Source of the DNA: Pycnococcus provasolii
Lineage: Eukaryota > Chlorophyta > Pseudoscourfieldiophyceae > Pseudoscourfieldiales > Pycnococcaceae
NCBI GenBank assembly: GCA_938743325.2
Contig: OW568870.1
Location: forward strand, 806,001-870,000
DNA: 64,000 bases
Direction of reading: 5' to 3'
Part shown: in pieces, positions 5,124-41,860 of the stretch
Position numbering within the stretch: position 1 is the first letter of the stretch
Layout of the letters: each line of letters begins with the position of its first letter
Translations under genes and position numbers: made by a program
Notes under the pieces: model-generated
Told to the model about the DNA's origin: nothing
Database searches by the model: none
The model's input: the letters and a program-made list of their open reading frames with translations, nothing else

Positions 5124-8100
5124 TCACTCTTCAGGAGCGAAAAAGTCGAATCGTCCAGGCGATGTGCTCGGCCGACTCGTGGACGAGTACGTTTGACGCA
5201 TGATGTCCGCCGTAGAAGGACGTGAAACCGCACCACCTGTCGTCTGAAGGTATGGCTCGAACATTGCGTTTCGGTGCACCTCATAAAGCTCGCGATTGAC
5301 ACGTTGGCGCCGTTCCGGGCTCATGACCCTTGGAGGCGGAGAGCTAATCTCACGCCTTACCACACCGTGTATGGCCAGCTGCTCGGCGGAATCGTTAGCA
5401 GACCAAGCCTCTCGGACTTCAGGAATTGTCGCAAGCGAATAGTCGTGCTCCGCTTGACTGCCATGAAGCTCGAGCGATAGCTGTTCATTTTCCCTTCTCA
5501 GCCTCTCCACCATCAGCTGCGTAGAGGCGCCGCTCGCGCTCAAGCGCGAGCTCAGCTCTGCCGCGCCCGAGTCCATCGACGGGCGCTGCGACGATGTTGT
5601 GAGATCCATTGTCTCGCGGTCAACTGCAAGTCGTGCCACCTTCTGCTCGAGCTCGGCGCATTCGCTCAGCACATCTTGGTACGCCTGTGCGAGCAGGCTA
5701 CGTCCCACGGGCCCATCTGTCATCGGCGGCCCATCGTGAAGTGCCGGAGTGTCAAATGCGGCGTACGGATCGTACGAAGGCGGGGGAAGCTCAGAGAATG
5801 TCGCCGGCGCAGGTGCCGGAGCAGGTGCCGGCTCCAGGCCGTGCAGGAATTCCTGCTCAACTCCTGCAACATAGTCGTGCGAGGCATCACCGTTGCCGCT
5901 GAAGCCAGAGCCAAGGTCCAGGCGCCAATCACGAAGCGCCTCGAGTGCCATCTCGCGGTCACGCAGCATGTCTGCACTCTCCGCGTCGAGGTTGTATCGC
6001 GCACGCTTGTCGTGAATGACGAACGTTCGCCAACCGATAAAGTGCCGCATGATTACCCGCATGCTCGCGAAGCGCACGATGCGCTGTAGACGAGTGCGAC
6101 GGGCAACAATGACACGAACAATTTCGCGCCAGCACAGGAAGCCGGCAGCCGCGAGTCTCTGCGACCGGCGCTCCACGCTCTTGAAGACGAGTCGTACCTG
6201 CGCCTTGAGCATGCTGGCGTAAAGCTTCCACGATTCAAATGCTGCGGAAAGCAGAGAGTTCGTCGCCTTGAGAATCACACGACGCGCCGCGGATCGTCGT
6301 TGGCGAAGATTGGCAACCTCTTCACGCCAGCACGCAAAACTGGCGAAAAGAGTTCCATGCTGCATTCGAGCAATGCTTCGAGAGCACAGCGATCTCACAC
6401 GCTTTCGGTACTGGTAGTGCTCCTTCCACGCCTCGAAACCCTGGCTCACAAGCCGATTCAGCATGCGGTACAGCGCACTGCTCAACTTCAACCGCGTATT
6501 TGTGGCTGTCTGCCACTGCTCCAACCATTGGCTGAATGCCATGTGCACCGAGCGGTAGACAAAGGCTGCCGCCGCGCGGCGTAGGAGCGCACGACCGTCC
6601 ATGATCTTTGCATGATACTCATACCACGCCTCCCAAGCCGAGCTCAGAGTACGGTGGACGAATCGCGCAAGCGCGCGGAAGGCAAGCTCCCGACCACTGC
6701 GATTCATTTCCACATAATCAAGCCACGAGTTGAAGCCCCCAATCAGTGCATTGTTCAGCATTCTGTTCAGGATCTTGACGCACATCTGCCTTTGCTTCAC
6801 TTGCGTAGTCCGGTAGTCGTACCACGCCACGAATGCAACTGAGGCTTCTCGATTTTTCATACGCTGAATGACGTTGTGCACCTTGCGCAGCTGGGCCTGC
6901 TGCGTTCGCTTGTGCTCGACGTAGTAGACCCAGGCACCGAAGCCCTGCGCCATCTCTCGTCTCGCAATCTTCCCCACCACGCGGAGCACGACAATTCTCT
7001 GCGATCGCAGCATCTCGTACGTCGCACGCCATCCGAAGAATGCGGCGCTAAGACCCGCGTTTCGCATGAAGCGAAGCGCGCGATCCATCTTCGCCTCGCG
7101 CTCCGCCTCCGCCGCACGCTCCGCCTTCTCCGCAGCCAGCCAGTCCACCCAAATGTCGAAGCCCTGCGCCATCTCGCGCTTCAGCACGCGAGCCATCACG
7201 CGAGTCACCACGGTGCGCTGGTGCTTCGTCGTCGCGCAGAGCTCCTGCCACTGCGCAAATGCTAGACGCTGCTGCCGGAACATGATACGGCCAGCCGCCT
7301 TGCGCAGAAGCGCGCGCTGAGCCCTGTCGCCCACCACCACCTCGCGCCAGCGGCTGAATGCCGCGAAGGCAGCCATCAGCGAGATGCGACCCACAGCCTT
7401 GGAGAGCAAAGCGCGCTGATCTCGCAACTCCTTCGTAGCTTCCGCCCATCGCACCCACGCCATGTGAAGCTGTCGATTGACCAACGAAGCTGCCGCCTTG
7501 AACGACACCATGCGCGCACGCTTCAGGTCGCTCGCGGCGTCCGCCCATGAGCTGAACGCCATGAAAACGACGCGGTTCGTCATGCGAGTCACGGCGCGCG
7601 TCAGCTTCGCGCGCTGCGTCTTTCGCGTCGACCAGACGTCGTGCCACTGGTCGAATGCCATGCTGAGACCCCGGTTGATCATGTGGCGCAGCGCGCGATT
7701 CTTCTTCGCCGTGCGCTCCGCCTCCGCCGCACGCTCCACCTTCTCGGCGGCGAGCCACGCGACCCACGCATCGAAGCCCTGCGACATCTCGCGCTTCACC
7801 ACCTTCATCAGCGTGCGTCGCACAACCAAACGCTGCGATCGCAGCATCTCGTACGTCGCACGCCATCCGAAGAATGCGGCGCTAAGACCCGCGTTTCGCA
7901 TGAAGCGAAGCGCGCGATCCATCTTCGCCTCGCGCTCCGCCTCCGCCGCACGCTCCGCCTTCTCCGCAGCCAGCCAGTCCACCCAAATGTCGAAGCCCTG
8001 CGCCATCTCGCGCTTCAGCACGCGAGCCATCACGCGAGTCACCACGGTGCGCTGGTGCTTCGTCGTCGCGCAGAGCTCCTGCCACTGCGCAAATGCTAGA

Positions 8101-17100: not shown

Positions 17101-20100
17101 CCAAAGGCGGTTGCAAGTGCAAGCTTTCCAAATCGAATAATGATTTTTCGCAGTAGATTCTTTTTTGCGACCCGATCTTGAGCATAGAAAAGCCACTGGT
17201 TGAAGGCTGACATGAGAACGGAATTTAGAATGTTGTATAGGATTTGTGACGCGCGCTGACGTTGCAACCTCTTCTTTCGAAGCAAGTCGATATAGTACAA
17301 CCAAGAGTCAAATGCCCGAGACAAGCAGCCATTCATTATTTTGCCTAAAATTTTCTGCGCAATAACTTTGCTTCTCTTTGCCTCGTGCGCATGCATTTGC
17401 CAAGAAACAAATGCCATTCCGATGCAACGGTTGAACATGTGACGGAGCGCTCGCTCCTTCTTTCGCTTTTTCTCTGCTGCCGCGATACGTGCAAGACGCA
17501 GATCATCCACCAACACAACCCAAGATTCGTAGGCATGTGCCATTTCGCGTTGAGTAACCTTCATGAGCGATCGACGTAGAATTGATCGATCACGATTCAT
17601 TTTTCTCGTGATCAGATTCCACTGCACGAAGCACAGTGAAATGCGGCGATTCAGCATATGCAATATCACTCTCTGACGATGCGCCTTGACCTGTTCTTTC
17701 CTCAAGCCTCGCATTCTAATTTCCTCAAGCCAATCCTGCCAAGCCATGAACGCACCTCCTACGATGCGATTCAACATTCGGCCGAGACTTCTCGCCACTG
17801 CAAGACGTTGATGCTTTGCTGTCGTCCAGAGCTCGTACCACTTCGCGAACGCGAGACGCTGCTGGCGGTACAGCAGACGTCCCGCCGCCTTGCGAAGCAG
17901 CGTGCGTCGGTTGTTGTTCGTCGCGACCACCTCACACCAACGCGTCATTGCGGCATACGCCGCCACGAGAGCGATACGTGCGATGGCCTTGGTCAGCTTT
18001 GCACGCTGCTCGCGGAGGGCCATGGTCGCCTCGTACCAGCGGCCGAACGACATGCTCAACGCGCGGTTCAGCATGTGACGCAACGCCTTGTTCTTCTTCG
18101 CGCGGCGATCGGCCTTAGCGATGCGGTACTCCTTCAGATCTGTGAGCCACTCCACCCACGCCTCGAAGCCCTGCGCCATCTCGCGCTTAGCCACCTTCAC
18201 AAGAGCACGCTGCAGAATCAGGCGCTGACGCTTCAGAGCTGACGCCGCCTCGTACCACCGGCCGAACGACATGCTCAACGCGCGGTTCAGCATGTGACGC
18301 AACGCCTTGTTCTTCTTCGCGCGGCGATCAGCCTCAGCGATGCGGTACTCCCTCAGGTCGACCAGCCATTCCACCCACGCCTCGAAGCCCTGCGCCATCT
18401 CGCGCTTAGCCACCTTCACAAGAGCACGCTGCAGAATCAGGCGCTGACGCTTCAGAGCTGACGCCGCCTCGTACCACCGGCCGAACGACATGCTCAACGC
18501 GCGGTTCAGCATGTGACGCAACGCCTTGTTCTTCTTCGCGCGGCGATCAGCCTCAGCGATGCGGTACTCCCTCAGATCTGTGAGCCACTCCACCCACGCC
18601 TCGTAGCCCTGAGCCATCTCGCGCTTAGCCACCTTCACAAGAGCACGCTGCAGAATCAGGCGCTGACGCTTCAGAGCTGACGCCGCCTCGTACCACCGGC
18701 CGAACGACATGCTCAACGCGCGGTTCAGCATGTGACGCAACGCCTTGTTCTTCTTCGCGCGGCGATCAGCCTCAGCGATGCGGTACTCCTTCAGATCTGT
18801 GAGCCACTCCACCCACGCCTCGTAGCCCTGCGCCATCTCGCGCTTAGCCACCTTCACAAGAGCACGCTGCAGAATCAGGCGCTGACGCTTCAGAGCTGAC
18901 GCCGCCTCGTACCACCGGCCGAACGACATGCTCAACGCGCGGTTCAGCATGTAACGCAACGCCTTGTTCTTCTTCGCGCGGCGATCGGCCTCAGCGATGC
19001 GGTACTCCCTCAGATCTGTGAGCCACTCCACCCACGCCTCGTAGCCCTGCGCCATCTCGCGCTTAGCCACCTTCACAAGGGCACGCTGCAGAATCAGGCG
19101 CTGACGCTTCAGAGCTGACGCCGCCTCGTACCACCGGCCGAACGACATGCTCAACGCGCGGTTCAGCATGTGACGCAACGCCTTGTTCTTCTTCGCGCGG
19201 CGATCAGCCTCAGCGATGCGGTACTCCTTCAGATCTGTGAGCCACTCCACCCACGCCTCGTAGCCCTGAGCCATCTCGCGCTTAGCCACCTTCACAAGAG
19301 CACGCTGCAGAATCAGGCGCTGACGCTTCAGAGCTGACGCCGCCTCGTACCACCGGCCGAACGACATGCTCAACGCGCGGTTCAGCATGTGACGCAACGC
19401 CTTGTTCTTCTTCGCTCGGCGATCGGCCTCAGCGATGCGGTACTCCTTCAGATCTGTGAGCCACTCCACCCACGCCTCGTAGCCCTGAGCCATCTCGCGC
19501 TTAGCCACCTTCACAAGAGCACGCTGCAGAATCAGGCGCTGACGCTTCAGAGCTGACGCCGCCTCGTACCAGCGGCCGAACGACATGCTCAACGCGCGGT
19601 TCAGCATGTAACGCAACGCCTTGTTCTTCTTCGCGCGGCGATCGGCCTCAGCGATGCGGTACTCCTTCAGGTCGACCAGCCACTCCACCCACGCCTCGTA
19701 GCCCTGCGCCATCTCGCGCTTAGCCACCTTCACAAGAGCACGCTGCAGAATCAGGCGCTGACGCTTCAGAGCTGACGCCGCCTCGTACCACCGGCCGAAC
19801 GACATGCTCAACGCGCGGTTCAGCATGTGACGCAACGCCTTGTTCTTCTTCGCGCGGCGATCAGCCTCAGCGATGCGGTACTCCTTCAGATCTGTGAGCC
19901 ACTCCACCCACGCCTCGTAGCCCTGCGCCATCTCGCGCTTAGCCACCTTCACAAGAGCACGCTGCAGAATCAGGCGCTGACGCTTCAGAGCTGACGCCGC
20001 CTCGTACCACCGGCCGAACGACATGCTCAACGCGCGGTTCAGCATGTGACGCAACGCCTTGTTCTTCTTCGCGCGGCGATCAGCCTCAGCGATGCGGTAC

Positions 20101-23100
20101 TCCTTCAGATCTGTGAGCCACTCCACCCACGCCTCGTAGCCCTGAGCCATTTGTCGCTTCATTACTCGAGCTAATGCTTTCGTGACAACAAGTCGTTGAT
20201 GTTTGAGCATAGTCCAAACGTGTTGCCATTGTGCAAATGCCATCCGTTGCTGACGGAACACAATTCGACCTGCCGCTTTGCGCAACAGAGATCGTTGTGT
20301 TTTCATTGTGGTCCACACTTCGCGCCAACGATTCAACGCCGCGTACGCTCCCACAAGCGCAATCCGACTAATCGCCTTTTCGAGCTTCGAGCGTTCTTCA
20401 CGACGCACAGCAACAACTTCCACCCATCGCATCCAAGACATATTGAGCTGACGATTGATCAAGGAACGCAAAGCCCTGCCGGACATCAACCGTGAACGAC
20501 GTAATTGAGCCGACTGCTCCACCCAAGCTCCCCACGCGCCGTACATCGCACGGTTCTTGAGACGACGCAACGACTTGTCCACCTTGGCGCGTTGCTGGCG
20601 CAGCGCGGATGCCGCGTCGTACCAGCGACCGAACGACATGCTCAACGCGCGGTTCAGCATGTGACGCAGCGCCTTGTTCTTCTGAGCACGGCGCTTCTCT
20701 TCAGCGACACGGAACTCCCTCAGGTCGATCAGCCACTCCACCCACGCCTCGTAGCCCTGCGCCATCTCGCGCTTTGCCACCTTCATCAGCGTACGCTGCA
20801 CAACCAAGCGCTGACGCTTATGCTGTACGTAGATGTCGTGCCAGCGGAAGAACGCTGCACTCTGACCACGATATATGATGTGACGAAGTGCCTTGTCCTT
20901 CTTCGCGCGGCGATCAGCCTCCGCGATGCGGTACTCCTTCAGGTCGATCAACCACTCCATCCACAGCTCGAAGCCCTGTGCCATCTCGCGCTTAAGCACC
21001 TTTGACAGCACCTTGCTCGCCACCGCCTTCTGGCGCTTCACTGTCGTCCAGAGCTCGTACCACTTCGCGAACGCGAGACGCTGCTGGCGGTACAGCAGAC
21101 GACCCGCCGCCTTGCGAAGCAGCGTGCGTCGGTTGTTGTTCGTCGCGACCACCTCGCGCCAGCGCGTCATTGCGGCATACGCCGCCACGAGAGCGATACG
21201 CGCGATGGCCTTGGTCAGCTTCGCGCGTTGCTCGCGCAGCTTCTCGGTGGCAGACAGCCACGCGCTCCACGCGCCGTACAACGCACGGTTCTTGAGACGA
21301 CGCAGCGACTTGTCCACCTTGGCGCGTTGCTGGCGTAGCGCGGATGCCGCATCGTTCCAGCGGCCGAAAGCCATACTGAGACCACGGTTGATCATATGAC
21401 GGAGAGCCTTGTTCTTCTGTCGGCGTCTGTGCTCTTTTTGCTCGCGAGCTGCACAAACTATCTCGACATATTTGATCCACGATACCACACTTTCGCTTAG
21501 TTCTCGATTAGTCACCTTGAGCAAAACACGTCTAACAATCGCCCTATGATTGCGCATTCTGTCGTACACGTGATACCAATTGACGAAAGCAATCGAAATG
21601 AAACGATTCTGCATGTGCAACACAATTCGTTCCATTTTCACGAGTTTTCTTTCTTTTTCAGCTCGGATATCCTTTAATGCCTGTATAAAGTCAACCCATG
21701 TCTCGAATCCCTGCGCCATCTCGCGCTTAGCCACCTTCATCAGTGTGCGCTGCACAACCAAGCGCTGTCGCTTGTGTGTTTTCCAGATATCCGACCATCG
21801 CTGGAACGGAAGGGCGAGAGCACGGTTCAGCATGTGACGCAGCGCCTTGTTCTTCTGAGCACGGCGCTTCTCCTCAGCCTCTTGGTATTCCCTCAAGTCG
21901 ATCAGCCACTCCACCCACGCCTCGTAGCCCTGCGCCATCTCGCGCTTTGCCACCTTCATCAGCGTACGCTGCACAACCAAGCGCTGACGCTTATGCTGTA
22001 CGTAGATGTCGTGCCAGCGGAAGAACGCTGCACTCTGACCACGATATATGATGTGACGAAGTGCCTTGTCCTTCTTCGCGCGGCGATCAGCCTCCGCGAT
22101 GCGGTACTCCTTCAGGTCGATCAACCACTCCATCCACAGCTCGAAGCCCTGTGCCATCTCGCGCTTAAGCACCTTTGACAGCACCTTGCTCACCACCGCC
22201 TTCTGGCGCTTCACTGTCGTCCAGAGCTCGTACCACTTCGCGAACGCGAGACGCTGCTGGCGGTACAGCAGACGACCCGCCGCCTTGCGAAGCAGCGTGC
22301 GTCGGTTGTTGTTCGTCGCGACCACCTCACGCCAGCGCGTCATTGCGGCATACGCCGCCACGAGAGCGATACGCGCGACGGCCTTGGTCAGCTTCGCGCG
22401 TTGCTCGCGCAGCTTCTCGGTGGCAGACAGCCACGCGCTCCACGCGCCGTACAACGCACGGTTCTTGAGACGACGCAGCGACTTGTCCACCTTGGCGCGT
22501 TGCTGGCGTAGCGCGGATGCCGCATCGTACCAGCGGCGGAACGACATGCTCAACGCACGGTTCAGCATGTGACGCAGTGCCTTGTTTTTTCTCGCTCGGC
22601 GATTCTCTCTTGTTTGCAAAGCTGCCTGCAGCATCAGAATGTACTCAAGCCATGCTTCGAAGCCCTGCGCCATCTCCCTCTTGAGCACCTTTGATAGCAC
22701 TTTTCTCACAACCGCGCGTTGGTGTTTAACTCTAATCCACATATGATGCCATTGCGCGAACGCGAGACGCTGGTGACGGTACAGCAGACGTCCTGCCGCC
22801 TTCCGCAGAAGGGCTCGGCGGTCATTGTTCGTCGCGACCACCTCGCGCCAGCGCGTCATTGCGGCATACGCCGCCACGAGAGCGATGCGTGCGATGGCCT
22901 TGGTCAGCTTCGCGCGTTGCTCGCGCAGCTTCTCGGTGGCAGACAGCCACGCGCTCCACGCGCCGTACATCGCACGGTTCTTCAGACGACGCAGCGACTT
23001 GTCTACCTTTGCTCGCTGCTCACGTAAAGCAGTCGCCGCTTCGTACCAGCGGCCGAACGACATGCTCAACGCGCGGTTTAGCATGTAACGCAGCGCCTTG

Positions 23101-26100: not shown

Positions 26101-29100
26101 AGGCGAAGAAGAGACTTTTCCACCTTGGCGCGTTGCTGGCGCAGCGCGGATGCCGCGTCGTACCAGCGACCGAACGACATGCTCAACGCGCGGTTCAGCA
26201 TGTGACGCAGCGCCTTGTTCTTCTGAGCACGGCGCTTCTCCTCAGCCTCTTGGTATTCCCTCAAGTCGATCAGCCACTCCACCCACTGCTCGAAACCGTG
26301 CGCCATCTCGCGCTTTGCCACCTTCATCAGCGTACGCTGCACAACCAAGCGCTGACGCTTATGCTGTACGTAGATGTCGTGCCAGCGGAAGAACGCCGCA
26401 CCCTGACCACGATATATGATGTGACGAAGTGCCTTGTCCTTCTTCGCGCGGCGATCAGCCTCCGCGATGCGGTACTCCTTCAGGTCGATCAACCACTCCA
26501 TCCACAGCTCGAAGCCCTGTGCCATCTCGCGCTTAAGCACCTTTGACAGCACCTTGCTCGCCACCGCCTTCTGGCGCTTCACTGTCGTCCAGAGCTCGTA
26601 CCACTTCGCGAACGCGAGACGCTGCTGGCGGTACAGCAGACGACCCGCCGCCTTGCGAAGCAGCGTGCGTCGGTTGTTGTTCGTCGCGACCACCTCACGC
26701 CAGCGCGTCATTGCGGCATACGCCGCCACGAGAGCGATACGTGCGATGGCCTTGGTCAGCTTCGCGCGTTGGTCTTCCATCTGCTGCACAACCTCAAGCC
26801 AGCGGCGGAACGCCATTCGGCTCGTGCGATTCGCGAAGGCGGCCGCCGCCTTGCGGCCAGCGAAGCGCTGGAAGCGGAGACGGTTGCTCTGCGCAACCCA
26901 CGCGTCAAACGCGAAGGCTTGAGCACGTTTCATCATGCGCAATGCAGCCTGTCTAAGACGTGCACGCTGCGATCGAAGCACCTGCGTCGCCTCCCACCAG
27001 CGCTCATATGCTGCGCCAGCAAGCCGATTCCGCATGCGCCGCAGAGCCTTGTCAAGTTTTCTTCGACGAGCCTCCTTCTCGGCGCGCGCCTCCTTCGCGA
27101 GCGATACATACGTCATCCACGTCGAAAAGCCCAGTGACATGCTACGCTGCATGACCTTGCCGAGCACGCGACGAACGAGCGCCTTCTGCCGCCTCACCGT
27201 TGACCACACGTCATACCACTGACCGAACGCGCGACTTATATTCTGGTTCAACATGTGGCGCATCGCCTTGTCAGCCTTCACGCGCTCCTTCGCCTGCTCA
27301 CGACAGTCCATCACGTAGTCGACCCAGCTGAGGAAGCCCATGCTCAACACGCGATTTCCGATGCGACCGAGCACGCGCTCGACCACCTCGCGCTCGCGTC
27401 GCACTGTGCGCCAAGCTTCTTCCCATCGTGCAAAGCTCATGTGTAACCGACGATTGCGCAATCGGCCCATCACCTTGCGCGCCATCGCACGCTTACTTGC
27501 ACGCTCCTCCATGTAGTCTTGCCATCGGCGCAGAGACGCAGCACACGCCACGATGCGCATGCGCGACACCGCCTTGACGAGTAAGCGACGCTGATCTTCC
27601 ATCCGCTGCGCAACCTCAAGCCAGCGGCGGAACGCCATTCGGCTCGTGCGATTCGCGAAGGCGGCCGCCGCCTTGCGGCCAGCGAAGCGCTGGAAGCGGA
27701 GACGGTTGCTCTGCGCAACCCACGCGTCAAACGCGAAGGCTTGTACTCGATTAATGAGACGCATCAATGCCTGCTTAAGACGTGCACGCTGCGATCGAAG
27801 CACCTGCGTCGCCTCCCACCAGCGCTCATATGCTGCGCCAGCAAGCCGATTCCGCATGCGCCGCAGAGCCTTGTCAAGTTTTCTTCGACGAGCCTCCTTC
27901 TCGGCGCGCGCCTCCTTCGCGAGCGATACATACGTCATCCACGTCGAAAAGCCCAGTGACATGCTACGCTGCATGACCTTGCCGAGCACGCGACGAACGA
28001 GCGCCTTCTGCCGCCTCACCGTTGACCACACGTCATACCACTGACCGAACGCGCGACTTATATTCTGGTTCAACATGTGGCGCATCGCCTTGTCAGCCTT
28101 CACGCGCTCCTTCGCCTGCTCACGACAGTCCATCACGTAGTCGACCCAGCTGAGGAAGCCCATGCTCAACACGCGATTTCCGATGCGACCGAGCACGCGC
28201 TCGACCACCTCGCGCTCGCGTCGCACTGCGCGACAAGCTTCTTCCCATCGTGCAAAGCTCATGTGTAGCCGACGATTGCGCAATCGGCCCATCACCTTGC
28301 GCGCCATCGCACGCTTACTTGCACGCTCCTCCATGTAGTCTTGCCATCGGCGCAGAGACGCAGCACACGCTACGATGCGCATGCGCGACACCGCCTTGAC
28401 GAGTAAGCGACGCTGATCTTCCATCCGCTGCGCAACCTCAAGCCAGCGGCGGAACGCCATTCGGCTCGTGCGATTCGCGAAGGCGGCCGCCGCCTTGCGG
28501 CCAGCGAAGCGCTGGAAGCGGAGACGGTTGCTCTGCGCAACCCACGCGTCAAACGCGAAGGCTTGTACTCGATTAATGAGACGCATCAATGCCTGCTTAA
28601 GACGTGCACGCTGCGATCGAAGCACCTGCGTCGCCTCCCACCAGCGCTCATATGCTGCGCCAGCAAGCCGATTCCGCATGCGCCGCAGAGCCTTGTCAAG
28701 TTTTCTTCGACGAGCCTCCTTCTCGGCGCGCGCCTCCTTCGCGAGCGATACATACGTCATCCACGTCGAAAAGCCCAGTGACATGCTACGCTGCATGACC
28801 TTGCCGAGCACGCGACGAACGAGCGCCTTCTGCCGCCTCACCGTTGACCACACGTCATACCACTGACCGAACGCGCGACTTATATTCTGGTTCAACATGT
28901 GGCGCATCGCCTTGTCAGCCTTCACGCGCTCCTTCGCCTGCTCACGACAGTCCATCACGTAGTCGACCCAGCTGAGGAAGCCCATGCTCAACACGCGATT
29001 TCCGATGCGACCGAGCACGCGCTCGACCACCTCGCGCTCGCGTCGCACTGTGCGCCAAGCTTCTTCCCATCGTGCAAAGCTCATGTGTAGCCGACGATTG

Positions 29101-31550
29101 CGCAATCGGCCCATCACCTTGCGCGCCATCGCACGCTTACTTGCACGCTCCTCCATGTAGTATTGCCATCGGCGTAGAGACGCAGCACACGCCACGATGC
29201 GCATGCGCGACACCGCCTTGACGAGTAAGCGACGCTGATCTTCCGTCTGCTTCACAACCTCAAGCCAGCGGCGGAACGCCATTCGGCTCGTGCGATTCGC
29301 GAAGGCGGCCGCCGCCTTGCGGCCAGCGAAGCGCTGGAAGCGAATATGGGCAGTCCAATCGAGCCATGTGTGATATGCTGCAAAGGCGACGCGATTTCTT
29401 ATCGATAGTACGGCGCGCTCGAGTAGCACGCCTTTTCGCTTTAGATCAAGCGTTCGTTCTCGCCAGAGCAGGAAGAGCATGCTCAACTTCGCATGTAGCA
29501 TGCGCATTAAGACTCGACGACTGAGGTCTCGATGGCGACGCATTTCTGTCGCTGAATCAAACCACGATGCGAATGCCATCTGAATGCTCCGATTCGCCAT
29601 GCGACCTACCGCCTTACGCAGGATTCCGCGCTGATACACGATACCATTAATCGCATCAACCCAGCTATTCCAAGCCGCCAATACGTTCATTCTTCGAATT
29701 TTCTCCATCGTTCTCGCGAGCAGGGCGCGTTGTGCCGTCATGTGCAATACAGTTTCATGCCATGTCGCCATCGCCCTGAATATGGTACGGTTATGCAATG
29801 CCGATAGCGCACGAGCCAACAGTGTGCGACGATGCTTTATGAGATACAGCCAAGTTTGCCAGTTGTCGAGTGCTTGTACAAGCACGCGCTGGACGACGCG
29901 AAGGGCTATTTGGCGATTTCGACGCATTCGGAGGAAGTTTGCGCGCCAGCCTCCAAGAGCTGCCGTTAGCGTCTGGTTTCTCATTCGTGTGATGGCAGCG
30001 CGAAGTACACCTCGTCTTCGTTTTGTATCTCTCCATGCGCTGGCCCATGAAGAAAATGCGAAAGATAGGCTGCGATTCATCATGTGCCGGAGTGCGCGTT
30101 CCATCCGTGCACGCCGTGCGCGGCTCGCGCGAAGATTTTCTTTTTTCCTTTCGATGCTCTCGAGCCAAGCGTCAAATGACTGTGCCATGCCGCGTTTCGT
30201 CATGCGCGCAAGTGCCGCACCGAGCACTGCACGGCGACGTCGAGCCTCAAAGACGACGTCGAGCCAAGCATTCCACGCAAGGTGTGCCGCGCGCAGTCGC
30301 ATACGAGACAGCACGCGCATGGCCTTTTGCTTTTCCATGGCTCGAGCGGCTATCTGCGCTTGCCATTGTGCAAAGGCAAGGCGTGCAAGGCGATTGCGCA
30401 TACGCGCAATAGCGCGACGCATTGTTCTCGCGCGCGCCCTGCGCTCCGCGACTGCACCGCGCCAGCGATCTAGAGCCTTCGCCGCGTGCAGCTGGGCGAT
30501 GCGGGCTGCCGCACGACCAAAAGACGAGAGGCCTCGGCGCGACAATCGCACCTCTTCCTTCCATGCGTCCATCACCGCGCGTCGTCGTCGGCGGCGAAGG
30601 AGCCTGCTGCGTTGGCGTGCGCGCCTTGCCTCCATTGCGACCCCGCGACGCCAAGCACTTACAGCCTGCGTGAGCAGCGAGGATTCCAGCCGCACGATGG
30701 CGCGGTTCAGTAGTGTCGCGTGCTCTCCTTGGCTCGCGTCGATCGCCGCGGCGCTGGCGTGTCCCGTCTGCCCGATAGTATTTGCGGTGTAGCGTGTGGC
30801 AAAACCTCTCAGCAAGTTCATCGAGAGCTCGAGAGGTTCCGCGCCGTCGCGCGGTGGGCTGGGCTGTTCCGGCGCTGTTCTTATTCTGATCTGCTCAGGC
30901 GCCGGCTGCAGCTCCACACGCCTTCGTGGCGGTGGCGGGCTCGGCGTTCGTGCCGGCGGCACAGGCGCGGCGTCGTATTCGATTCGATTCACACGGTGCC
31001 GTTCGTCGTCGTCGTCGGCATAACGCAAGGCTGGCGGCGGGGACGCTCTTCGTGGACTGCTTAGCAGCGAGTCGGGCACAAACAGCAGATCCACCTTCAG
31101 CTTGGCCTGCGGCAGTCTTCGTGGCGACAGCTCGACGGCACTAGGTCCAGCCCCTCGTATGTGGCGCACCTCCCACTGCTCCCACACGCCGCACAGGCGG
31201 CTGTAGAAGGCGATGCGCGCATGTGGCGACGACAGGTGCCTTGCGCCTTGCAGATATCTGCCGTACGCGTGTTCGCTGTAGAATCCAAAGAACTGGCCGC
31301 GCGCAACCACGACGAGGTGACACGCCGGGTCCTCGAGAGCTGCGTATCCGCCACCGTCAGCAGTCGACGCGGGCCCCAGCTCGAGCACGGGTGCGGCAGC
31401 GTCGTCTTCGTCGCCCCCCCTTGGCGACGCCGCCGACTCCCCAGCTGGCCGGCGCACGCGATACACGCGTCCACCAGCGCCGCGCAGCGCGACGACGGCG
31501 CCTTCGCGCAGCAGGCCTCCCGACGCAGGCACGGGCGGAGTGTCCACCAT
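5124..31550 (-). CDS. Giant Sfi1-type centrin-binding repeat protein, about 8,800 residues
   Basis: One uninterrupted frame covering over 40% of the window, taken from the ATG at 31550 (an upstream in-frame codon at 31739 would add 63 residues). Residues 1 to about 270 form an N-terminal region with a possible fascin-like beta-trefoil (GFYSEHAYGRYLQG, then WEQWEV), followed by a Pro-rich linker. From about 30,720 down to about 6,030 the protein is built of Sfi1 repeats: amphipathic helices with a Trp (types AFxxWxE, AxxRWREV, GFELWxEW) every 33 residues, or alternating 33 and 40, rich in Arg and Lys. By length I estimate about 240 repeats; I did not count each one. The last 300 or so residues hold an Ala-Pro stretch, two short coiled coils and a Ser/Pro-rich tail. 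Known Sfi1 proteins are near 1,000 residues; only ciliate contractile-fibre proteins approach this size. Likely role: a long centrin-decorated fibre at basal bodies or flagellar roots. Confidence 0.88.
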   Translation of the reverse strand: MVDTPPVPASGGLLREGAVVALRGAGGRVYRVRRPAGESAASPRGGDEDDAAAPVLELGPASTADGGGYAALEDPACHLVVVARGQFFGFYSEHAYGRYLQGARHLSSPHARIAFYSRLCGVWEQWEVRHIRGAGPSAVELSPRRLPQAKLKVDLLFVPDSLLSSPRRASPPPALRYADDDDERHRVNRIEYDAAPVPPARTPSPPPPRRRVELQPAPEQIRIRTAPEQPSPPRDGAEPLELSMNLLRGFATRYTANTIGQTGHASAAAIDASQGEHATLLNRAIVRLESSLLTQAVSAWRRGVAMEARRARQRSRLLRRRRRRAVMDAWKEEVRLSRRGLSSFGRAAARIAQLHAAKALDRWRGAVAERRARARTMRRAIARMRNRLARLAFAQWQAQIAARAMEKQKAMRVLSRMRLRAAHLAWNAWLDVVFEARRRRAVLGAALARMTKRGMAQSFDAWLESIERKKENLRASRARRARMERALRHMMNRSLSFAFSSWASAWRDTKRRRGVLRAAITRMRNQTLTAALGGWRANFLRMRRNRQIALRVVQRVLVQALDNWQTWLYLIKHRRTLLARALSALHNRTIFRAMATWHETVLHMTAQRALLARTMEKIRRMNVLAAWNSWVDAINGIVYQRGILRKAVGRMANRSIQMAFASWFDSATEMRRHRDLSRRVLMRMLHAKLSMLFLLWRERTLDLKRKGVLLERAVLSIRNRVAFAAYHTWLDWTAHIRFQRFAGRKAAAAFANRTSRMAFRRWLEVVKQTEDQRRLLVKAVSRMRIVACAASLRRWQYYMEERASKRAMARKVMGRLRNRRLHMSFARWEEAWRTVRREREVVERVLGRIGNRVLSMGFLSWVDYVMDCREQAKERVKADKAMRHMLNQNISRAFGQWYDVWSTVRRQKALVRRVLGKVMQRSMSLGFSTWMTYVSLAKEARAEKEARRRKLDKALRRMRNRLAGAAYERWWEATQVLRSQRARLKQALMRLINRVQAFAFDAWVAQSNRLRFQRFAGRKAAAAFANRTSRMAFRRWLEVAQRMEDQRRLLVKAVSRMRIVACAASLRRWQDYMEERASKRAMARKVMGRLRNRRLHMSFARWEEACRAVRREREVVERVLGRIGNRVLSMGFLSWVDYVMDCREQAKERVKADKAMRHMLNQNISRAFGQWYDVWSTVRRQKALVRRVLGKVMQRSMSLGFSTWMTYVSLAKEARAEKEARRRKLDKALRRMRNRLAGAAYERWWEATQVLRSQRARLKQALMRLINRVQAFAFDAWVAQSNRLRFQRFAGRKAAAAFANRTSRMAFRRWLEVAQRMEDQRRLLVKAVSRMRIVACAASLRRWQDYMEERASKRAMARKVMGRLRNRRLHMSFARWEEAWRTVRREREVVERVLGRIGNRVLSMGFLSWVDYVMDCREQAKERVKADKAMRHMLNQNISRAFGQWYDVWSTVRRQKALVRRVLGKVMQRSMSLGFSTWMTYVSLAKEARAEKEARRRKLDKALRRMRNRLAGAAYERWWEATQVLRSQRARLRQAALRMMKRAQAFAFDAWVAQSNRLRFQRFAGRKAAAAFANRTSRMAFRRWLEVVQQMEDQRAKLTKAIARIALVAAYAAMTRWREVVATNNNRRTLLRKAAGRLLYRQQRLAFAKWYELWTTVKRQKAVASKVLSKVLKREMAQGFELWMEWLIDLKEYRIAEADRRAKKDKALRHIIYRGQGAAFFRWHDIYVQHKRQRLVVQRTLMKVAKREMAHGFEQWVEWLIDLREYQEAEEKRRAQKNKALRHMLNRALSMSFGRWYDAASALRQQRAKVEKSLLRLKNREMYGAWSAWLSATEKLRNQRARVDKSLRRLKNRALYGAWGAWQSATVQLREQRAKLTKAIGRIKLVAIFAGFNQWRSVIEADKSRKALLRKAAGRLLYRQQRLAFAQWYDMLVTTKRQRAVVSKVLSKVLKREMAQGFELWMQWIESLKAHRVAEEKRRARKNKALRKMMNRKLSIAFMSWMETYIESTRRREIVRKMLMKVLNRETSLAFTGWFVNVQHLSEQRAKVDKSLRRLKNRALYGAWGAWQSATVQLREQRAKLTKAIGRIKLVAIFAGFNQWRSVIEADKSRKALLRKAAGRLLYRQQRLAFAQWYDMLVTTKRQRAVVSKVLSKVLKREMAQGFELWLEYVLLLQAARQAESERRAQKNKALRHMINRGLSMAFRRWNEAATALRQQRAKVDKSLRRLKNRALYGAWGAWLSATVQLREQRAKLTKAIGRIKLVAIFAGFNQWRSVIEADKSRKALLRKAAGRLLYRQQRLAFAQWYDMLVTTKRQRAVVSKVLSKVLKREMAQGFELWLEYVLLLQAARQAESERRAQKNKALRHMINRGLSMAFRRWNEAATALRQQRAKVDKSLRRLKNRAMYGAWGAWQSATEQLREQRAKLTKAVARIALVAAYAAMTRWREVVATNNDRRALLRKAAGRLLHRHQRLAFAQWHDMLVTTKRQRAVVSKVLSKVVKREMAQGFELWTEYIESLKAHRVAEEKRRAQKNKALRHMLNRALALPFQRWSDIWKTHKRQRMVVQRTLMKVVKREMAQGFELWMEYLVNLKEYRIAKAERRAKKNKALRHMLNSALSMSFGRWYEATMALREQRAKLTKAIARIALVAAYAAMTRWREVVATNNDRRALLRKAAGRLLHRHQRLAFAQWYDMLVTTKRQRAVVSKVLSKVVKREMAQGFELWTEYIESLKAHRVAEEKRRAQKNKALRHMLNRALALPFQRWSDIWKTHKRQRMVVQRTLMKVVKREMAQGFELWMEYLVNLNEYRIAKAERRAKKNKALRYMLNRALSMSFGRWYEAATALREQRAKVDKSLRRLKNRAMYGAWSAWLSATEKLREQRAKLTKAIARIALVAAYAAMTRWREVVATNNDRRALLRKAAGRLLYRHQRLAFAQWHHMWIRVKHQRAVVRKVLSKVLKREMAQGFEAWLEYILMLQAALQTRENRRARKNKALRHMLNRALSMSFRRWYDAASALRQQRAKVDKSLRRLKNRALYGAWSAWLSATEKLREQRAKLTKAVARIALVAAYAAMTRWREVVATNNNRRTLLRKAAGRLLYRQQRLAFAKWYELWTTVKRQKAVVSKVLSKVLKREMAQGFELWMEWLIDLKEYRIAEADRRAKKDKALRHIIYRGQSAAFFRWHDIYVQHKRQRLVVQRTLMKVAKREMAQGYEAWVEWLIDLREYQEAEEKRRAQKNKALRHMLNRALALPFQRWSDIWKTHKRQRLVVQRTLMKVAKREMAQGFETWVDFIQALKDIRAEKERKLVKMERIVLHMQNRFISIAFVNWYHVYDRMRNHRAIVRRVLLKVTNRELSESVVSWIKYVEIVCAAREQKEHRRRQKNKALRHMINRGLSMAFGRWNDAASALRQQRAKVDKSLRRLKNRALYGAWSAWLSATEKLREQRAKLTKAIARIALVAAYAAMTRWREVVATNNNRRTLLRKAAGRLLYRQQRLAFAKWYELWTTVKRQKAVASKVLSKVLKREMAQGFELWMEWLIDLKEYRIAEADRRAKKDKALRHIIYRGQSAAFFRWHDIYVQHKRQRLVVQRTLMKVAKREMAQGYEAWVEWLIDLREFRVAEEKRRAQKNKALRHMLNRALSMSFGRWYDAASALRQQRAKVDKSLRRLKNRAMYGAWGAWVEQSAQLRRSRLMSGRALRSLINRQLNMSWMRWVEVVAVRREERSKLEKAISRIALVGAYAALNRWREVWTTMKTQRSLLRKAAGRIVFRQQRMAFAQWQHVWTMLKHQRLVVTKALARVMKRQMAQGYEAWVEWLTDLKEYRIAEADRRAKKNKALRHMLNRALSMSFGRWYEAASALKRQRLILQRALVKVAKREMAQGYEAWVEWLTDLKEYRIAEADRRAKKNKALRHMLNRALSMSFGRWYEAASALKRQRLILQRALVKVAKREMAQGYEAWVEWLVDLKEYRIAEADRRAKKNKALRYMLNRALSMSFGRWYEAASALKRQRLILQRALVKVAKREMAQGYEAWVEWLTDLKEYRIAEADRRAKKNKALRHMLNRALSMSFGRWYEAASALKRQRLILQRALVKVAKREMAQGYEAWVEWLTDLKEYRIAEADRRAKKNKALRHMLNRALSMSFGRWYEAASALKRQRLILQRALVKVAKREMAQGYEAWVEWLTDLREYRIAEADRRAKKNKALRYMLNRALSMSFGRWYEAASALKRQRLILQRALVKVAKREMAQGYEAWVEWLTDLKEYRIAEADRRAKKNKALRHMLNRALSMSFGRWYEAASALKRQRLILQRALVKVAKREMAQGYEAWVEWLTDLREYRIAEADRRAKKNKALRHMLNRALSMSFGRWYEAASALKRQRLILQRALVKVAKREMAQGFEAWVEWLVDLREYRIAEADRRAKKNKALRHMLNRALSMSFGRWYEAASALKRQRLILQRALVKVAKREMAQGFEAWVEWLTDLKEYRIAKADRRAKKNKALRHMLNRALSMSFGRWYEATMALREQRAKLTKAIARIALVAAYAAMTRWCEVVATNNNRRTLLRKAAGRLLYRQQRLAFAKWYELWTTAKHQRLAVARSLGRMLNRIVGGAFMAWQDWLEEIRMRGLRKEQVKAHRQRVILHMLNRRISLCFVQWNLITRKMNRDRSILRRSLMKVTQREMAHAYESWVVLVDDLRLARIAAAEKKRKKERALRHMFNRCIGMAFVSWQMHAHEAKRSKVIAQKILGKIMNGCLSRAFDSWLYYIDLLRKKRLQRQRASQILYNILNSVLMSAFNQWLFYAQDRVAKKNLLRKIIIRFGKLALATAFGSWFEAVSNTKQSRAKASRALARMTNRSLANAFLQWIQKSEDAKRHRGLLKKAAYTLTNGCLARAYKQWFGIVKRSNEQRALLGKALGRIASLAAAAAWRSWTEFVQVSKDRRVIMRKVAGKMRNRKVSAAFSQWKDLIATTKRQRALVRRHLARVLSREIAESFERWTTWLIELKEWRMIEEERAATMERAIRHMINRCTSVAYQQWHGEWQRNKKHRAVAYRALKRMQNRILSSTFSSWLEEINRLAHMRQLSYKAAGAFINRQLHMAWARWVEAKSAMQEQRTKLTKAIGRIKLVAIFAGFNQWRSVIEENKARKALLRKAAGRLLYRHQRLAFAQWYDMLVTTKRQRAVVSKVMSKVLKREMAQGFELWTEYIESLKAHRVAEEKRRAQKNKALRHMLNRALALPFQRWSDIWKTHKRQRMVVQRTLMKVVKREMAQGFELWTEYIESLKAHRVAEEKRRAQKNKALRHMLNRALALPFQRWSDIWKTHKRQRMVVQRTLMKVVKREMAQGFELWTEYIESLKAHRVAEEKRRAQKNKALRHMLNRALALPFQRWSDIWKTQKRQRLVVRRVLMKVTQREMAHGFEQWVEWLIDVKEFRVAEEKRRAQKNKALRHMLNRALSMPFGRWYDAASALRQQRAKVNKSLLRLKNREMYGAWSAWLSATEKLREQRAKLTKAVARIALVAAYAAMTRWREVVATNNNRRTLLRKAAGRLLYRQQRLAFAKWYELWTTVKRQKAVASKVLSKVLKREMAQGFELWMEWLIDLKEYRIAEADRRAKKDKALRHIIYRGQSAAFFRWHDIYVQHKRQRLVVQRTLMKVAKREMAHGFEQWVEWLIDLREFRVAEEKRRAQKNKALRHMLNRALSMSFGRWNDAASALRQQRAKVDKSLRRLKNRALYGAWSAWLSATEKLREQRAKLTKAIARIALVAAYAAMTRWREVVATNNNRRTLLRKAAGRLLYRQQRLAFAKWYELWTTVKRQKAVVSKVLSKVLKREMAQGFELWMEWLIDLKEYRIAEADRRAKKDKALRHIIYRGQSAAFFRWHDIYVQHKRQRLVVQRTLMKVAKREMAHGFEQWVEWLIDLKEFRVAEEKRRAQKNKALRHMLNRALSMSFGRWYDAASALRQQRAKVEKSLLRLKNREMYGAWGAWVEQSAQLRHARMLTAKAARSMINRQLNMSWMRWVEVVAVRREERSKLEKAISRIALVGAYAALNRWRDVVDDNATKRSLLRKAAGRLVFRQQRLAFARWEDAWSTLKRQRSLLQRSLGMAKNRSLGGAFTSWIGFIDELYEQKATKASNEAKMARVIKYALNRTYAKAFRNWEQTASVMKESRIQAAKALRHLVNRALASAYNQWESQATLARRQRTAIRRSLMKVLKREMASAFESWCGLIEERRRLDKLMHRGLARFVNATTARAFETWSDAYRKNAFVKLKRQRLMKSVAVRSFLDWRLFYITTRESNDELIRGFDRLVVTRLLTTCVRGWVSHVHFERTKGRKLRKFLIRAQQGNLVRCFDEMRINAADSKSRRAALKGVLHRMAKVKLVKAWNSWLSTYHDMCHKRMLLRKALMRHLQQAVSVAFESWVSVVEDRKADEAEADRKRQLSERAIRHLIYRCAAVAFTSWHDTYTSLKAKRSLVRRVLMKVTQREMADGFAAWQVLVIMHHQKQRNRQKAAKVLLKVLKRELSLALSAWLFFVEDRKAQRSRVGRALRRMANRALSAAMLRWCEVTSESIQQRTKVERCLLRMKNGAMYGAYAAWQQCVADMNRSRHLSHKALGSLMNRQLHMAWARWVEAKSAMQEQRTKLTKAVGRIKLVAIFAGFNQWRSVIEENKSRKALLRKAAGRLLYRHQRLAFAQWYDMLVTTKRQRAVVSKVMSKVLKREMAQGFELWTEYIESLKAHRVAEEKRRAQKNKALRHMLNRALALPFQRWSDIWKTHKRQRMVVQRTLMKVVKREMAQGFELWMEYIESLKAHRVAEEKRRAQKNKALRHMLNRALALPFQRWSDIWKTHKRQRMVVQRTLMKVVKREMAQGFELWTEYIESLKAERAAEAERAAKKNRALRYMINRGLSMAFGRWYEAATSLRQQRAKVEKTILRLNNRALYGAWGAWQTATQQLREQRTKVERCLLRMKNGAMYGAYAAWQQCVADMNRSRHLSHKALGSLMNRQLHMAWARWVEAKSAMQEQRTKLTKAVGRIKLVAIFAGFNQWRSVIEENKACKALLRKAAGRLLYRHQRLAFAQWYDMLVTTKRQRAVVSKVMSKVLKREMAQGFELWTEYIESLKAHRVAEEKRRAQKNKALRHMLNRALALPFQRWSDIWKTHKRQRIVVRRVLMKVTQREMAHGFEQWVEWLMELKEERLLKEEQEAAKNRALRHMMQRGLSSAFGQWQDVYETNKAQRAKVSRVLQRMRNRVIDAAYMSWKSFAEESKRMRYMSSKAILSMMNRSLFTAWGRWVEMAEAQRVERAKLYKAIARIKLVNVYAALNQWCELVQETKVQRALLRKAAGRIMFRHQRMAFAQWLDICATTRRQRNVVTRVMGRVLKREMAQGFDMWLDWLVAEKAERTAEAERTAKKNRALRHMINRGLSMAFDQWHDVWSTRKTQRAKLTRAVTRMTNRVVFMAFSSWADAASDLKRARMVSFKAAASLVNRQLHMAWVRWAEAAKELRDQRALLSKAVGRISLMAAFAAFSRWREVVVGDRAQRALLRKAAGRIMFRQQRLAFAQWQELCATTKHQRTVVTRVMARVLKREMAQGFDIWVDWLAAEKAERAAEAEREAKMDRALRFMRNAGLSAAFFGWRATYEMLRSQRLVVRRTLMKVVKREMSQGFDAWVAWLAAEKVERAAEAERTAKKNRALRHMINRGLSMAFDQWHDVWSTRKTQRAKLTRAVTRMTNRVVFMAFSSWADAASDLKRARMVSFKAAASLVNRQLHMAWVRWAEATKELRDQRALLSKAVGRISLMAAFAAFSRWREVVVGDRAQRALLRKAAGRIMFRQQRLAFAQWQELCATTKHQRTVVTRVMARVLKREMAQGFDIWVDWLAAEKAERAAEAEREAKMDRALRFMRNAGLSAAFFGWRATYEMLRSQRLVVRRTLMKVVKREMSQGFDAWVAWLAAEKVERAAEAERTAKKNRALRHMINRGLSMAFDQWHDVWSTRKTQRAKLTRAVTRMTNRVVFMAFSSWADAASDLKRARMVSFKAAASLVNRQLHMAWVRWAEATKELRDQRALLSKAVGRISLMAAFAAFSRWREVVVGDRAQRALLRKAAGRIMFRQQRLAFAQWQELCATTKHQRTVVTRVMARVLKREMAQGFDIWVDWLAAEKAERAAEAEREAKMDRALRFMRNAGLSAAFFGWRATYEMLRSQRIVVLRVVGKIARREMAQGFGAWVYYVEHKRTQQAQLRKVHNVIQRMKNREASVAFVAWYDYRTTQVKQRQMCVKILNRMLNNALIGGFNSWLDYVEMNRSGRELAFRALARFVHRTLSSAWEAWYEYHAKIMDGRALLRRAAAAFVYRSVHMAFSQWLEQWQTATNTRLKLSSALYRMLNRLVSQGFEAWKEHYQYRKRVRSLCSRSIARMQHGTLFASFACWREEVANLRQRRSAARRVILKATNSLLSAAFESWKLYASMLKAQVRLVFKSVERRSQRLAAAGFLCWREIVRVIVARRTRLQRIVRFASMRVIMRHFIGWRTFVIHDKRARYNLDAESADMLRDREMALEALRDWRLDLGSGFSGNGDASHDYVAGVEQEFLHGLEPAPAPAPAPATFSELPPPSYDPYAAFDTPALHDGPPMTDGPVGRSLLAQAYQDVLSECAELEQKVARLAVDRETMDLTTSSQRPSMDSGAAELSSRLSASGASTQLMVERLRRENEQLSLELHGSQAEHDYSLATIPEVREAWSANDSAEQLAIHGVVRREISSPPPRVMSPERRQRVNRELYEVHRNAMFEPYLQTTGGAVSRPSTADIMRQTYSSTSRPSTSPGRFDFFAPEE
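6985..9410 (-). repeat. Three tandem copies of an 834-bp (278-aa) Sfi1 supra-repeat
   Basis: Within the giant gene, blocks beginning near 7048, 7882 and 8716 repeat with a period of 834 bp. They are identical apart from scattered single-base differences (for example gcccatgagc against gcccacgagc). Each block holds about eight Trp repeats. The period is a multiple of three, so the frame is kept. This is recent in-frame segmental duplication or gene conversion. Confidence 0.85.
10250..11900 (-). repeat. 1,152-bp duplication and embedded 219-bp repeats
   Basis: The block around 10,250-10,740 recurs near 11,400-11,890, 1,152 bp away. Between them, 219-bp (73-aa) units start near 10,965, 11,184 and 11,403, each carrying GACTCGATATACTCC. 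The same 73-aa unit recurs near 15,529, 15,748 and 15,967 and again around 23.3-24.0 kb. Confidence 0.75.
13620..15430 (-). repeat. 735-bp tandem duplication inside the giant gene
   Basis: A 245-aa segment (ending in the EMYGAW/ALYGAW-type helices and the IYVQHKRQ helix) is repeated with a 735-bp offset, for example from 14,008 to 14,743. Highly similar copies of the same segment recur near 20.9, 22.1 and 26.4 kb, so the duplications are both tandem and dispersed within the gene. Confidence 0.75.
18160..20140 (-). repeat. Nine near-identical 219-bp (73-aa) Sfi1 units in tandem
   Basis: The most homogeneous array in the gene. GCCTCGTACCACCGGCCGAA recurs every 219 bp, and I count nine copies of the SALKRQRLILQRAL helix. 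Copies differ mainly at Y/F in GYEAW or GFEAW, T/V in WLTDL or WLVDL, and K/R in DLKEY or DLREY. Each unit has two Trp positions spaced 33 and 40 residues apart. Confidence 0.88.
23150..25440 (-). repeat. 636-bp and 516-bp tandem duplications inside the giant gene
   Basis: A block at about 23.2-23.8 kb recurs 636 bp later (about 23.85-24.35 kb). A block at about 24.2-24.7 kb recurs 516 bp later (about 24.7-25.25 kb) and partly again near 25.8 kb. All offsets are multiples of three. Confidence 0.7.
26820..29345 (-). repeat. Three tandem copies of an 822-bp (274-aa) Sfi1 supra-repeat
   Basis: The segment beginning LRFQRFAGRKAAAAFANRT recurs with an 822-bp period, with a fourth partial copy at the N-terminal end. 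Copies are almost identical; one differs by CRAVRR in place of WRTVRR, which loses a Trp. This is a different supra-repeat from the 834-bp set, so two independent amplifications have occurred near the two ends of the gene. Confidence 0.85.
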
Positions 31551-37798: not shown

Positions 37799-37934
37799 GG
37801 AATAGCTTAAGAAAAAAATACCATGTAAGTAACGACTGGAATCTCCGCAAACCTTTTCCTTTTTTATAAATAAATTCAAAAAAAGGCAAGTTCTCGTATC
37901 CTATAGAATAGATCAGTATAGATTAGGTCGTGTG

Positions 37935-37966
37935 TTAGGGTTAGGGTTAGGGTTCGGGTTAGGGGT
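37935..37966 (+). promoter_or_regulatory. TTAGGG telomere-type repeats upstream of NIT1-like gene
   Basis: Three perfect TTAGGG units, one TTCGGG and another TTAGGG(G), ending about 117 bp before the downstream ATG. Confidence 0.7.
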
Positions 37967-41639: not shown

Positions 41640-41860
41640 AAAATTCTAAAAAGTAGGGTTTCCCTTTGTAAGGAACCCTCGTGCTCTCCAAACCCTAAAC
41701 AATAACTCCTCGTAGTTGGTAGGCCATTGGTAGGCCGTAGGGTAGGGAACCTAATTAATGGGAACCTGCGATACCCCCCCTTGGTAGGTAAAATTTACCT
41801 ACCAAATCGTCCGGTTAGGGTTAGGGTTAGGGTTAGGGTTAGGGTTAGGGTTAGGGTTAG
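41640..41860 (+). promoter_or_regulatory. Telomere-type array and AACCCTA boxes in a divergent promoter
   Basis: Seven perfect TTAGGG units and a partial eighth occupy 41815-41860, about 100 bp before the ATG of the small TM protein. AACCCTAAA-type boxes (about 41634 and 41693) and TAGGGTTT (about 41654) lie toward the AlgH gene. CCTACCAA/TTGGTAGG inverted words lie between. This is the cleanest array in the window. Confidence 0.75.

Follow-up and report, generated by a model that had tools for sequence, protein, structure and literature searches.

Giant Sfi1-like scaffolds, such as the GSBP proteins of Spirostomum, occur in contractile ciliates. The Sfi1 repeat is described by the motif Ax7LLx3F/Lx2WK/R with a period of 33 residues (PMC5112337; PMC9406199; PMC8622359). 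The repeats of human SFI1 are separated by regular 10-residue gaps, and approximately 20 centrins are reported per Sfi1 molecule in yeast and approximately 25 in humans (PMC8622359). Tetrahymena has 13 SFR proteins (PMC5112337), PtCenBP1 of the Paramecium infraciliary lattice contains repeated centrin-binding motifs in filaments that are believed to become shorter in response to calcium (PMC6189993), and hundreds of binding sites are stated for the myoneme scaffolds of contractile protists (PMC12661445). Here we analyzed a 64,000-nt stretch of the Pycnococcus provasolii genome (contig OW568870.1, positions 806,001 to 870,000; hereafter the window), in which a single open frame on the minus strand encodes a protein with approximately 230 Sfi1-like repeats, against the approximately 20 and 25 centrins of the yeast and human proteins. 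In the literature cited, giant scaffolds of this kind are known from contractile protists; what is notable here is the lineage, the size and the expansion into a family.

The frame runs from 31739 to 5124 on the minus strand and comprises 8,871 codons from a TTG to the stop codon in the list of open reading frames (ORFs). The first in-frame ATG is residue 64 (window position 31550; residue numbers are counted from the TTG), and the protein starting there has 8,808 residues, with a computed mass of 1,039 kDa and a computed isoelectric point of 11.5. An earlier prediction made from the letters alone (hereafter the original prediction) had claimed an uninterrupted frame of approximately 8,800 codons with 31550 as its upper boundary, and the frame is indeed open throughout, while the remaining five frames over 5124 to 31739 contain between 121 and 421 stops. 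Repeats were located by an iterated position-specific score matrix, thresholded at the top score in 20 whole-protein shuffles and seeded with 222 Trp windows that had a hydrophobic residue at positions -3 and -16 relative to the Trp, position -7 being unconstrained. This matrix yielded an array of 231 strict Trp-centred repeats between residues 439 and 8549 (6093 to 30425, minus strand). Every one of them is centred on a Trp, the first being Trp 459 and the last Trp 8537, and 158 of the 231 33-mers are distinct. Neighboring repeats are spaced by 33 residues in 168 of 230 intervals and by 40 residues in 54, the others being 36 (six intervals), 29 (one) and 129 (one), in agreement with the earlier description of Trp residues every 33 or alternately 33 and 40 residues. 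The period is also apparent when no seed is chosen, with a Trp-Trp separation of 33 seen 175 times among the 336 Trp. A HMMER model built from the seed windows gave 235 domains (the first one with a negative score), and a few degenerate repeats were seen by eye beyond the strict 231, which makes the ‘about 240’ repeats of the original prediction a fair estimate.

The repeats resemble the Sfi1 consensus in part. Residue -3 is Phe in 162 repeats, Trp in 27, Tyr in 21, Met in 11, Leu in nine and Val in one, so that Phe or Leu is present in 171 of 231. Position -7 is aliphatic in 167 repeats (Leu in 81, Met in 60) and position -16 is Ala in 144. The triad of Trp, a hydrophobic residue at -3 and an aliphatic residue at -7 occurs in 167 repeats (mean 19.0 and maximum 30 in 200 within-repeat shuffles), and the combination of Ala at -16, an aliphatic residue at -7 and Phe or Leu at -3 in 64 (shuffled mean 1.1, maximum 4), an enrichment that is partly circular because the seed required hydrophobic residues at -3 and -16, though not at -7. 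In a test with no such selection, three or more of the five other consensus positions agree at 125 of the 336 Trp sites (37%), compared to 7.5% after shuffling. Likewise, the short motif [FLW]xxW is found 241 times in the protein, against a mean of 56.4 and a maximum of 75 in 200 shuffles.

Internal copies show that the frame is under selection at the protein level. For 269 pairs of segments, each two repeats long and 80 to 97% identical in DNA sequence, the ratio of nonsynonymous to synonymous change (dN/dS) is 0.31 in frame, whereas pairs picked by the same rule but shifted by one or two bases give 1.14 and 1.70; these pairs are not independent because the copies have a common ancestry. Third codon positions are the most common site of change (3,343 of 6,327 in-frame differences), and codon usage correlates with that of eight neighboring ORFs at 0.84, compared to 0.30 to 0.57 for the five other frames. 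By dN/dS and codon usage, 5124 to 31739 is a protein-coding gene. Introns occur elsewhere in the genome, as in the centrin gene on C6, where inspection by eye showed interruptions bordered by GT and AG. A 26-kb frame without interruption is therefore notable, and a general lack of introns in the genome does not account for it.

The array shows nested duplication, with 219-nt tandem copies as well as 834-nt copies. A tandem array of 9.7 copies with 97% matches (18027 to 20150, minus strand) has a unit of 219 nt, corresponding to 73 residues or one 33- plus one 40-residue spacing, and is a recent expansion. An 834-nt segment (278 residues) is duplicated at 7048 to 8802 (minus strand), where the longest exact repeat, of 721 nt, begins at 7549 and 8383.

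The original prediction described a single gene, which proved too narrow, since at least 13 loci bear such repeats and the window gene is a member of this family. Across the 32.3-Mb genome, a 400-residue array query detected twelve more loci, a number that is a lower bound. Their frames comprise 7,042 (C44), 5,463 (C5), 3,973 (C13), 3,247 (C8), 2,548 (C40), 2,473 (C31), 2,139 (C20), 1,989 (C16), 1,770 (C11), 1,755 and 1,531 (both C1) and 573 codons (C12). Tests were run on a part of each locus, picked by the match and in three cases shorter than 2 kb. In all twelve stretches, Trp pairs 33 residues apart exceed every one of 50 shuffles, and the window matrix finds six to 57 repeats in each, 338 in total, 319 of them Trp-centred. 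The weakest first match (C13, E 6.7e-4) lies in a kilobase with nine such Trp pairs against two at most in shuffles. The C8 paralogue (L064) aligns to the window repeats over approximately 400 residues, mostly Trp to Trp, with 21% identity (E 3e-23). The unselected consensus test, which covered the window and six paralogue frames (L062 to L067), gave 35, 39, 38 and 25% for L063, L064, L065 and L067, compared to 6.0 to 8.6% after shuffling, and [FLW]xxW is above all shuffles in 11 of the 12 paralogue frames.

Several properties would fit a long amphipathic helix. The repeat region contains ten Pro in 8,162 residues, and the mean hydrophobic moment of the repeats peaks at 90 to 95 degrees per residue, where it reaches 0.297 and 0.314 while shuffles give 0.165 and 0.173, with a second peak at 115 degrees (0.275 versus 0.174) and a value of 0.226 versus 0.165 at 100 degrees. 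The spacings of 29, 33, 36 and 40 residues in the window differ by about whole helical turns, which is what a continuous helix would demand. In the 12 paralogue frames, 33 accounts for 152 of the 180 neighbor spacings between 25 and 45, followed by 29 (13 cases), 44 (six) and 40 (five). Since the α-helix rises 0.15 nm per residue, the array as one straight helix would measure 1,217 nm. A 33-residue step is computed to rotate the binding face by 60 degrees, close to the 65-degree rotation reported for Cdc31 on yeast Sfi1 (PMC4564689). The array is very basic, with 1,821 Lys and Arg residues against 681 Asp and Glu.

Two centrin genes stand out in the same genome. The best solved relatives of the centrin exon on C6 are caltractin and centrin-2 (E 6e-54), and an ORF on C24 is a second centrin by its best matches (E 2.5e-43). 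Genes for SF-assemblin (E 3.3e-42), PACRG (E 6e-81) and SAS-6 (E 2.8e-31) are present as well, and their presence suggests that the organism has centrioles, axonemes and striated roots. The 18S ribosomal RNA (rRNA) gene, which matches the Rfam SSU eukarya model and was covered apart from its 5' part, has no mismatch to the Chlorophyta probe CHLO02, while seven other clade probes have two to seven. One of 51 matches to light-harvesting complex (LHC) proteins is Lhca3 by its best matches (E 4e-88). Together with the 18S gene and Lhca3, the PACRG, SAS-6 and SF-assemblin genes indicate a flagellated alga of the green lineage. A stramenopile reading of the 18S gene is overruled by the CHLO02 match and by Lhca3, whereas the markers could also be those of a chlorarachniophyte.

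We consider it fairly probable that the window protein is a calcium-responsive, megadalton Sfi1-like centrin scaffold of flagellar-base fibers. The frame, the repeats, the protein-level selection, the paralogue family and the centrin, SAS-6, PACRG and SF-assemblin genes are directly observed, and from them we infer a continuous helix that would bind centrin, respond to calcium, contract and lie at the flagellar base. Approximately 230 amphipathic segments, mainly of 33 or 40 residues, would make one long, proline-poor and very basic helix, in which the C-lobe of an acidic centrin would grip each segment at a triad of the Trp/Phe/Leu type. With one centrin per repeat, a molecule would carry approximately 230 centrins over up to about 1.2 μm, and the acidic centrins would neutralize the basic helix. 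Calcium would alter the grip of the centrins on the helix and on one another, and the filament would shorten or stiffen. Together with at least 12 shorter paralogues, the protein would then form the backbone of flagellar-base centrin fibers of the rhizoplast or nucleus-basal-body connector type, a placement suggested by the organism and the kind of protein. The rhizoplast, the contraction and the molecular ruler of the original prediction would likewise be readings at this conditional level.

The calcium response is suggested by analogy with Toxoplasma. There, the SFI1 peptides R17, R24 and R31, in which Phe or Trp occupies triad position 4 and Leu position 8, bound centrin only with calcium, while R5 and R12, with Val or Ile at position 8, showed weaker binding without calcium and the W-L-L type binds without it too (PMC9406199). 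In the window protein, position 4 (-3) is Phe or Trp in 189 of 231 repeats and position 8 (-7) is Leu in 81, and these residues hint at a calcium-sensitive occupancy. At high calcium, centrin-decorated Sfi1 fibers are believed to coil and become shorter, and centrin was first isolated from rhizoplasts, found in some prasinophyte green algae (PMC6070942). A further-reaching proposal, which we advance tentatively and hold to be possible though doubtful, is that the 13 or more loci form one expanded set of giant centrin scaffolds with helix lengths up to about 1.2 μm, serving as the backbone of a contractile rhizoplast or nucleus-basal-body connector, where the length of a single molecule would set the length of the organelle and calcium-driven shortening would come from the hundreds of centrins on each basic helix.

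A number of results weigh against a centrin scaffold of the Sfi1 type. In the repeats themselves, position -8 is aliphatic in just 21 of 231 and position +1 is Lys or Arg in just 30, neither being conserved, and one repeat out of 231 fits all six consensus positions. The motif [FLW]xxW[KR], applied as a minimal motif to a Plasmodium Sfi1-like protein (PMC10180636), is found 27 times in the frame (shuffled mean 12.2, maximum 23) and exceeds all shuffles in only three of the 12 paralogue frames. Two paralogues show no excess in the unselected consensus test (7% versus 5.4% for L062 and 3% versus 7.4% for L066). The Pfam Sfi1 profile (PF08457) matched none of ten window pieces covering the frame at E up to 1, none of three further pieces (one of 4,480 residues) at E up to 10, and neither of two additional pieces. 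Of seven paralogue pieces scanned, one matched it: L064, with 23.3 bits (cut-off 22), E 2.8e-5 and six stretches. A search of the genome itself with PF08457 gave no match, and the same profile matched in none of 14 control genomes, leaving the reach of that search unchecked. Unrelated families outscore Sfi1, namely P22_AR_C (2.9e-17 in L062), HypF_C_2 (5.7e-15 in the window) and Suf (4.8e-10), and because of these better E-values the L064 match is weak by itself and counts as support, not proof. Searching the PDB at E up to 10 with a profile of 51 non-overlapping window repeat pairs gave seven chains, all under names other than Sfi1. Lastly, no centrin expansion of the contractile-ciliate kind is visible in the genome with one 93-residue query, since its further matches are two calmodulin-like ORFs on C1 (51% identity, labeled by eye) and, after these, a match of 42% over 67 residues. 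In Paramecium, the contractile lattice accounts for 38 of the 50 centrin genes (PMC5483020).

These results leave the original prediction partly standing. Its Sfi1-type reading is supported by the 33-residue period, the triad, the scarcity of Pro, the Pfam match of L064, the two centrins and the algal host, and is weakened by the missing PF08457 match, the unconserved positions -8 and +1 and the centrins, which show no visible expansion beyond the genes on C6 and C24. It had also named an absent Sfi1-profile match as an outcome that would refute it; the window protein is indeed unmatched, which is softened by the paralogue that crosses the cut-off. As the window protein has no PF08457 match, we name it Sfi1-like and do not file it under that family. 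The matches to HypF_C_2, P22_AR_C, Suf, H-NS, Clat_adaptor and other Pfam families were set aside as inflated by the repeats, because, in those that pass their cut-offs, the best stretches span approximately 30 to 65 residues and the family differs from piece to piece; Suf was nevertheless retained as an alternative. Automatic annotation of giant Trp-repeat proteins may accordingly mislead, with unrelated domains scoring up to E 2.9e-17.

The alternative that survives best, though we hold it to be rather unlikely, is that the centrin scaffold is structural and not contractile, a ruler or tether for basal-body linkers comparable to Sfi1 in the yeast half-bridge and free of calcium-driven shortening. 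The binding of yeast Cdc31 to Sfi1 is seemingly calcium-independent (PMC8622359), and a genome in which only two centrin genes stand out has no contractile repertoire like that of ciliates. The calcium argument is moreover extrapolated from Toxoplasma, and Leu occupies position 8 in only the 81 repeats mentioned. However, Phe or Trp at position 4 in 189 of 231 repeats would favor calcium-sensitive occupancy by the same analogy. The 97% identical tandem copies suggest that the length drifts, an argument against an exact ruler, though not one against a tether.

Less probable still, and in our view unlikely, are helical repeats that do not bind centrin at all, either as an α-solenoid of the HAT/TPR-like type (compare Pfam Suf) or as a scaffold for calmodulin, actin or microtubules. 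Pfam Suf, which we take to represent HAT repeats, scores up to 39 bits on window pieces (cut-off 24.7), the window protein has no Pfam Sfi1 match, and L062 and L066 are negative in the consensus test. However, Suf is one among several unrelated families that pass their cut-offs, and its best stretches span approximately 65 of 532 profile positions. HAT/Suf repeats are helix-turn-helix units of approximately 34 residues with breaks between the helices, and proline breaks helices, but Pro is nearly absent from the array (10 of 8,162 residues) and the Sfi1 triad is enriched.

We regard it as quite improbable that mis-assembly has inflated or deflated the repeat number and that the real protein is much shorter, longer or split among genes. 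Exact repeats of at least 300 nt hold 9,924 of the 26,616 frame bases, and for this reason the precise copy number depends on the assembly and may be off. However, none of these repeats reaches 1,000 nt (the longest being the 721-nt repeat), so they can be spanned by long reads, the window has 0 N, the frame is open throughout, and frames of 7,042 and 5,463 codons exist at other loci. That the array is non-coding or decaying repeat DNA, left open by a chance of composition, is extremely improbable despite the large tandem arrays, given the in-frame dN/dS against the shifted values, the excess of third-position changes and a codon usage that matches the neighbors.

Outside the array, the N-terminal module covers residues 79 to 257 (30969 to 31505, minus strand), as delimited by searches of the same genome and alignment. 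For residues 64 to 260, Pfam gave no match at E up to 10 and the PDB none better than E 1.1. When used as the query in the genome, they recur in the C11 Trp-repeat paralogue, again at the N-terminus (E 3.3e-5), and are related to the C-terminal part of a CtBP-like ORF on C16 (E 1.4e-4; L082, C16:421116-421448). In a three-way alignment, each relative shares 31% identity with the window module and G.WE is invariant. The C16 ORF also has a 2-hydroxyacid dehydrogenase NAD domain (Pfam 2-Hacid_dh_C, 7.1e-11, with PDB matches too); its architecture may be that of plant ANGUSTIFOLIA, whose C-terminal part the N-terminal module of the window protein would then resemble. The recurrence suggests that the module followed by a Trp array is an inherited architecture. 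At the other end, a C-terminal tail extends beyond the array (5124 to 5882, minus strand), its border with the array having been placed by eye. Residues 8664, 8800, 8807 and 8860 of the tail are Ser/Thr-Pro sites, and the stretch from 5127 to 5999 has no match in Pfam.

A viral origin of the locus was considered and rejected. A 400-residue piece, searched with six peptide patterns, had no match in viral contigs, and nine of the ten adjoining ORFs scanned contain Pfam families (e.g., PfkB, Nudix, NADH dehydrogenase subunit, Orn/Lys/Arg decarboxylase and GST), with none in the tenth. The window further contains short interstitial arrays of the GGTTAG type, in part telomere-like (37934 to 37964, 41813 to 41860 and 58636 to 58683), and 3.8 copies of a 157-nt unit that overlap two ORFs (61493 to 62088). 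Elsewhere in the genome, a group I intron (RF00028, 71.5 bits; L045:810-1155, C2) interrupts the 18S rRNA gene, and a 3' word of this gene occurs in two copies of opposite orientation approximately 16.5 kb apart. Twelve LHC matches with identical scores form two blocks of six (C31:133072-142609 and 360395-366434), which suggests that they were amplified recently or belong to a large duplication. Five EF-hand pair matches spaced by 465 nt, four of them equal in score, lie in one 1,285-codon frame (C2:1190324-1192414), which is a predicted tandem EF-hand repeat protein.

Compared to the described systems, the window protein is most like yeast and human Sfi1/SFI1 and the Tetrahymena SFR proteins in its 33-residue Trp-triad repeats and would also resemble them in forming a long helix whose every repeat binds a single centrin. 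The 13 SFR proteins reported for Tetrahymena are of the same order as the 13 loci found here. Unlike Sfi1, the algal protein has no conserved aliphatic residue at -8 or Lys/Arg at +1 and no Pfam Sfi1 match, and it has the Pfam-less N-terminal module. It is also like PtCenBP1 and the giant scaffolds of ciliates in its repeated motifs, but the host is of the green lineage and shows no large contractile centrin family such as those of Paramecium and contractile ciliates. The Sfi1-like protein PfSlp of Plasmodium (407 kDa) is an experimentally found centrin interactor, whereas the algal protein is known from its sequence. SF-assemblin, which has a gene in this genome, is comparable as a component of the flagellar-root fibers of green algae but is described as a rod-shaped coiled coil whose motifs are 29 residues long (PMC8435291). 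Among the literature matches listed, which included few subscription papers, none reported a giant protein of the Sfi1-like type from a green alga. Sfi1p is named as a frequent partner in centrin fibers generally, in passages that mention no algal rhizoplast scaffold (PMC6070942).

A centrin scaffold of the kind proposed here predicts centrins at intervals of 5 to 6 nm, all of them on one molecule more than 1 μm long. The giant Sfi1-like family of this green flagellate provides candidates for the backbone of algal flagellar-base fibers, which are open to tagging, pull-down and deletion. If the proposal is true, megadalton Sfi1-like scaffolds would not be restricted to contractile ciliates.

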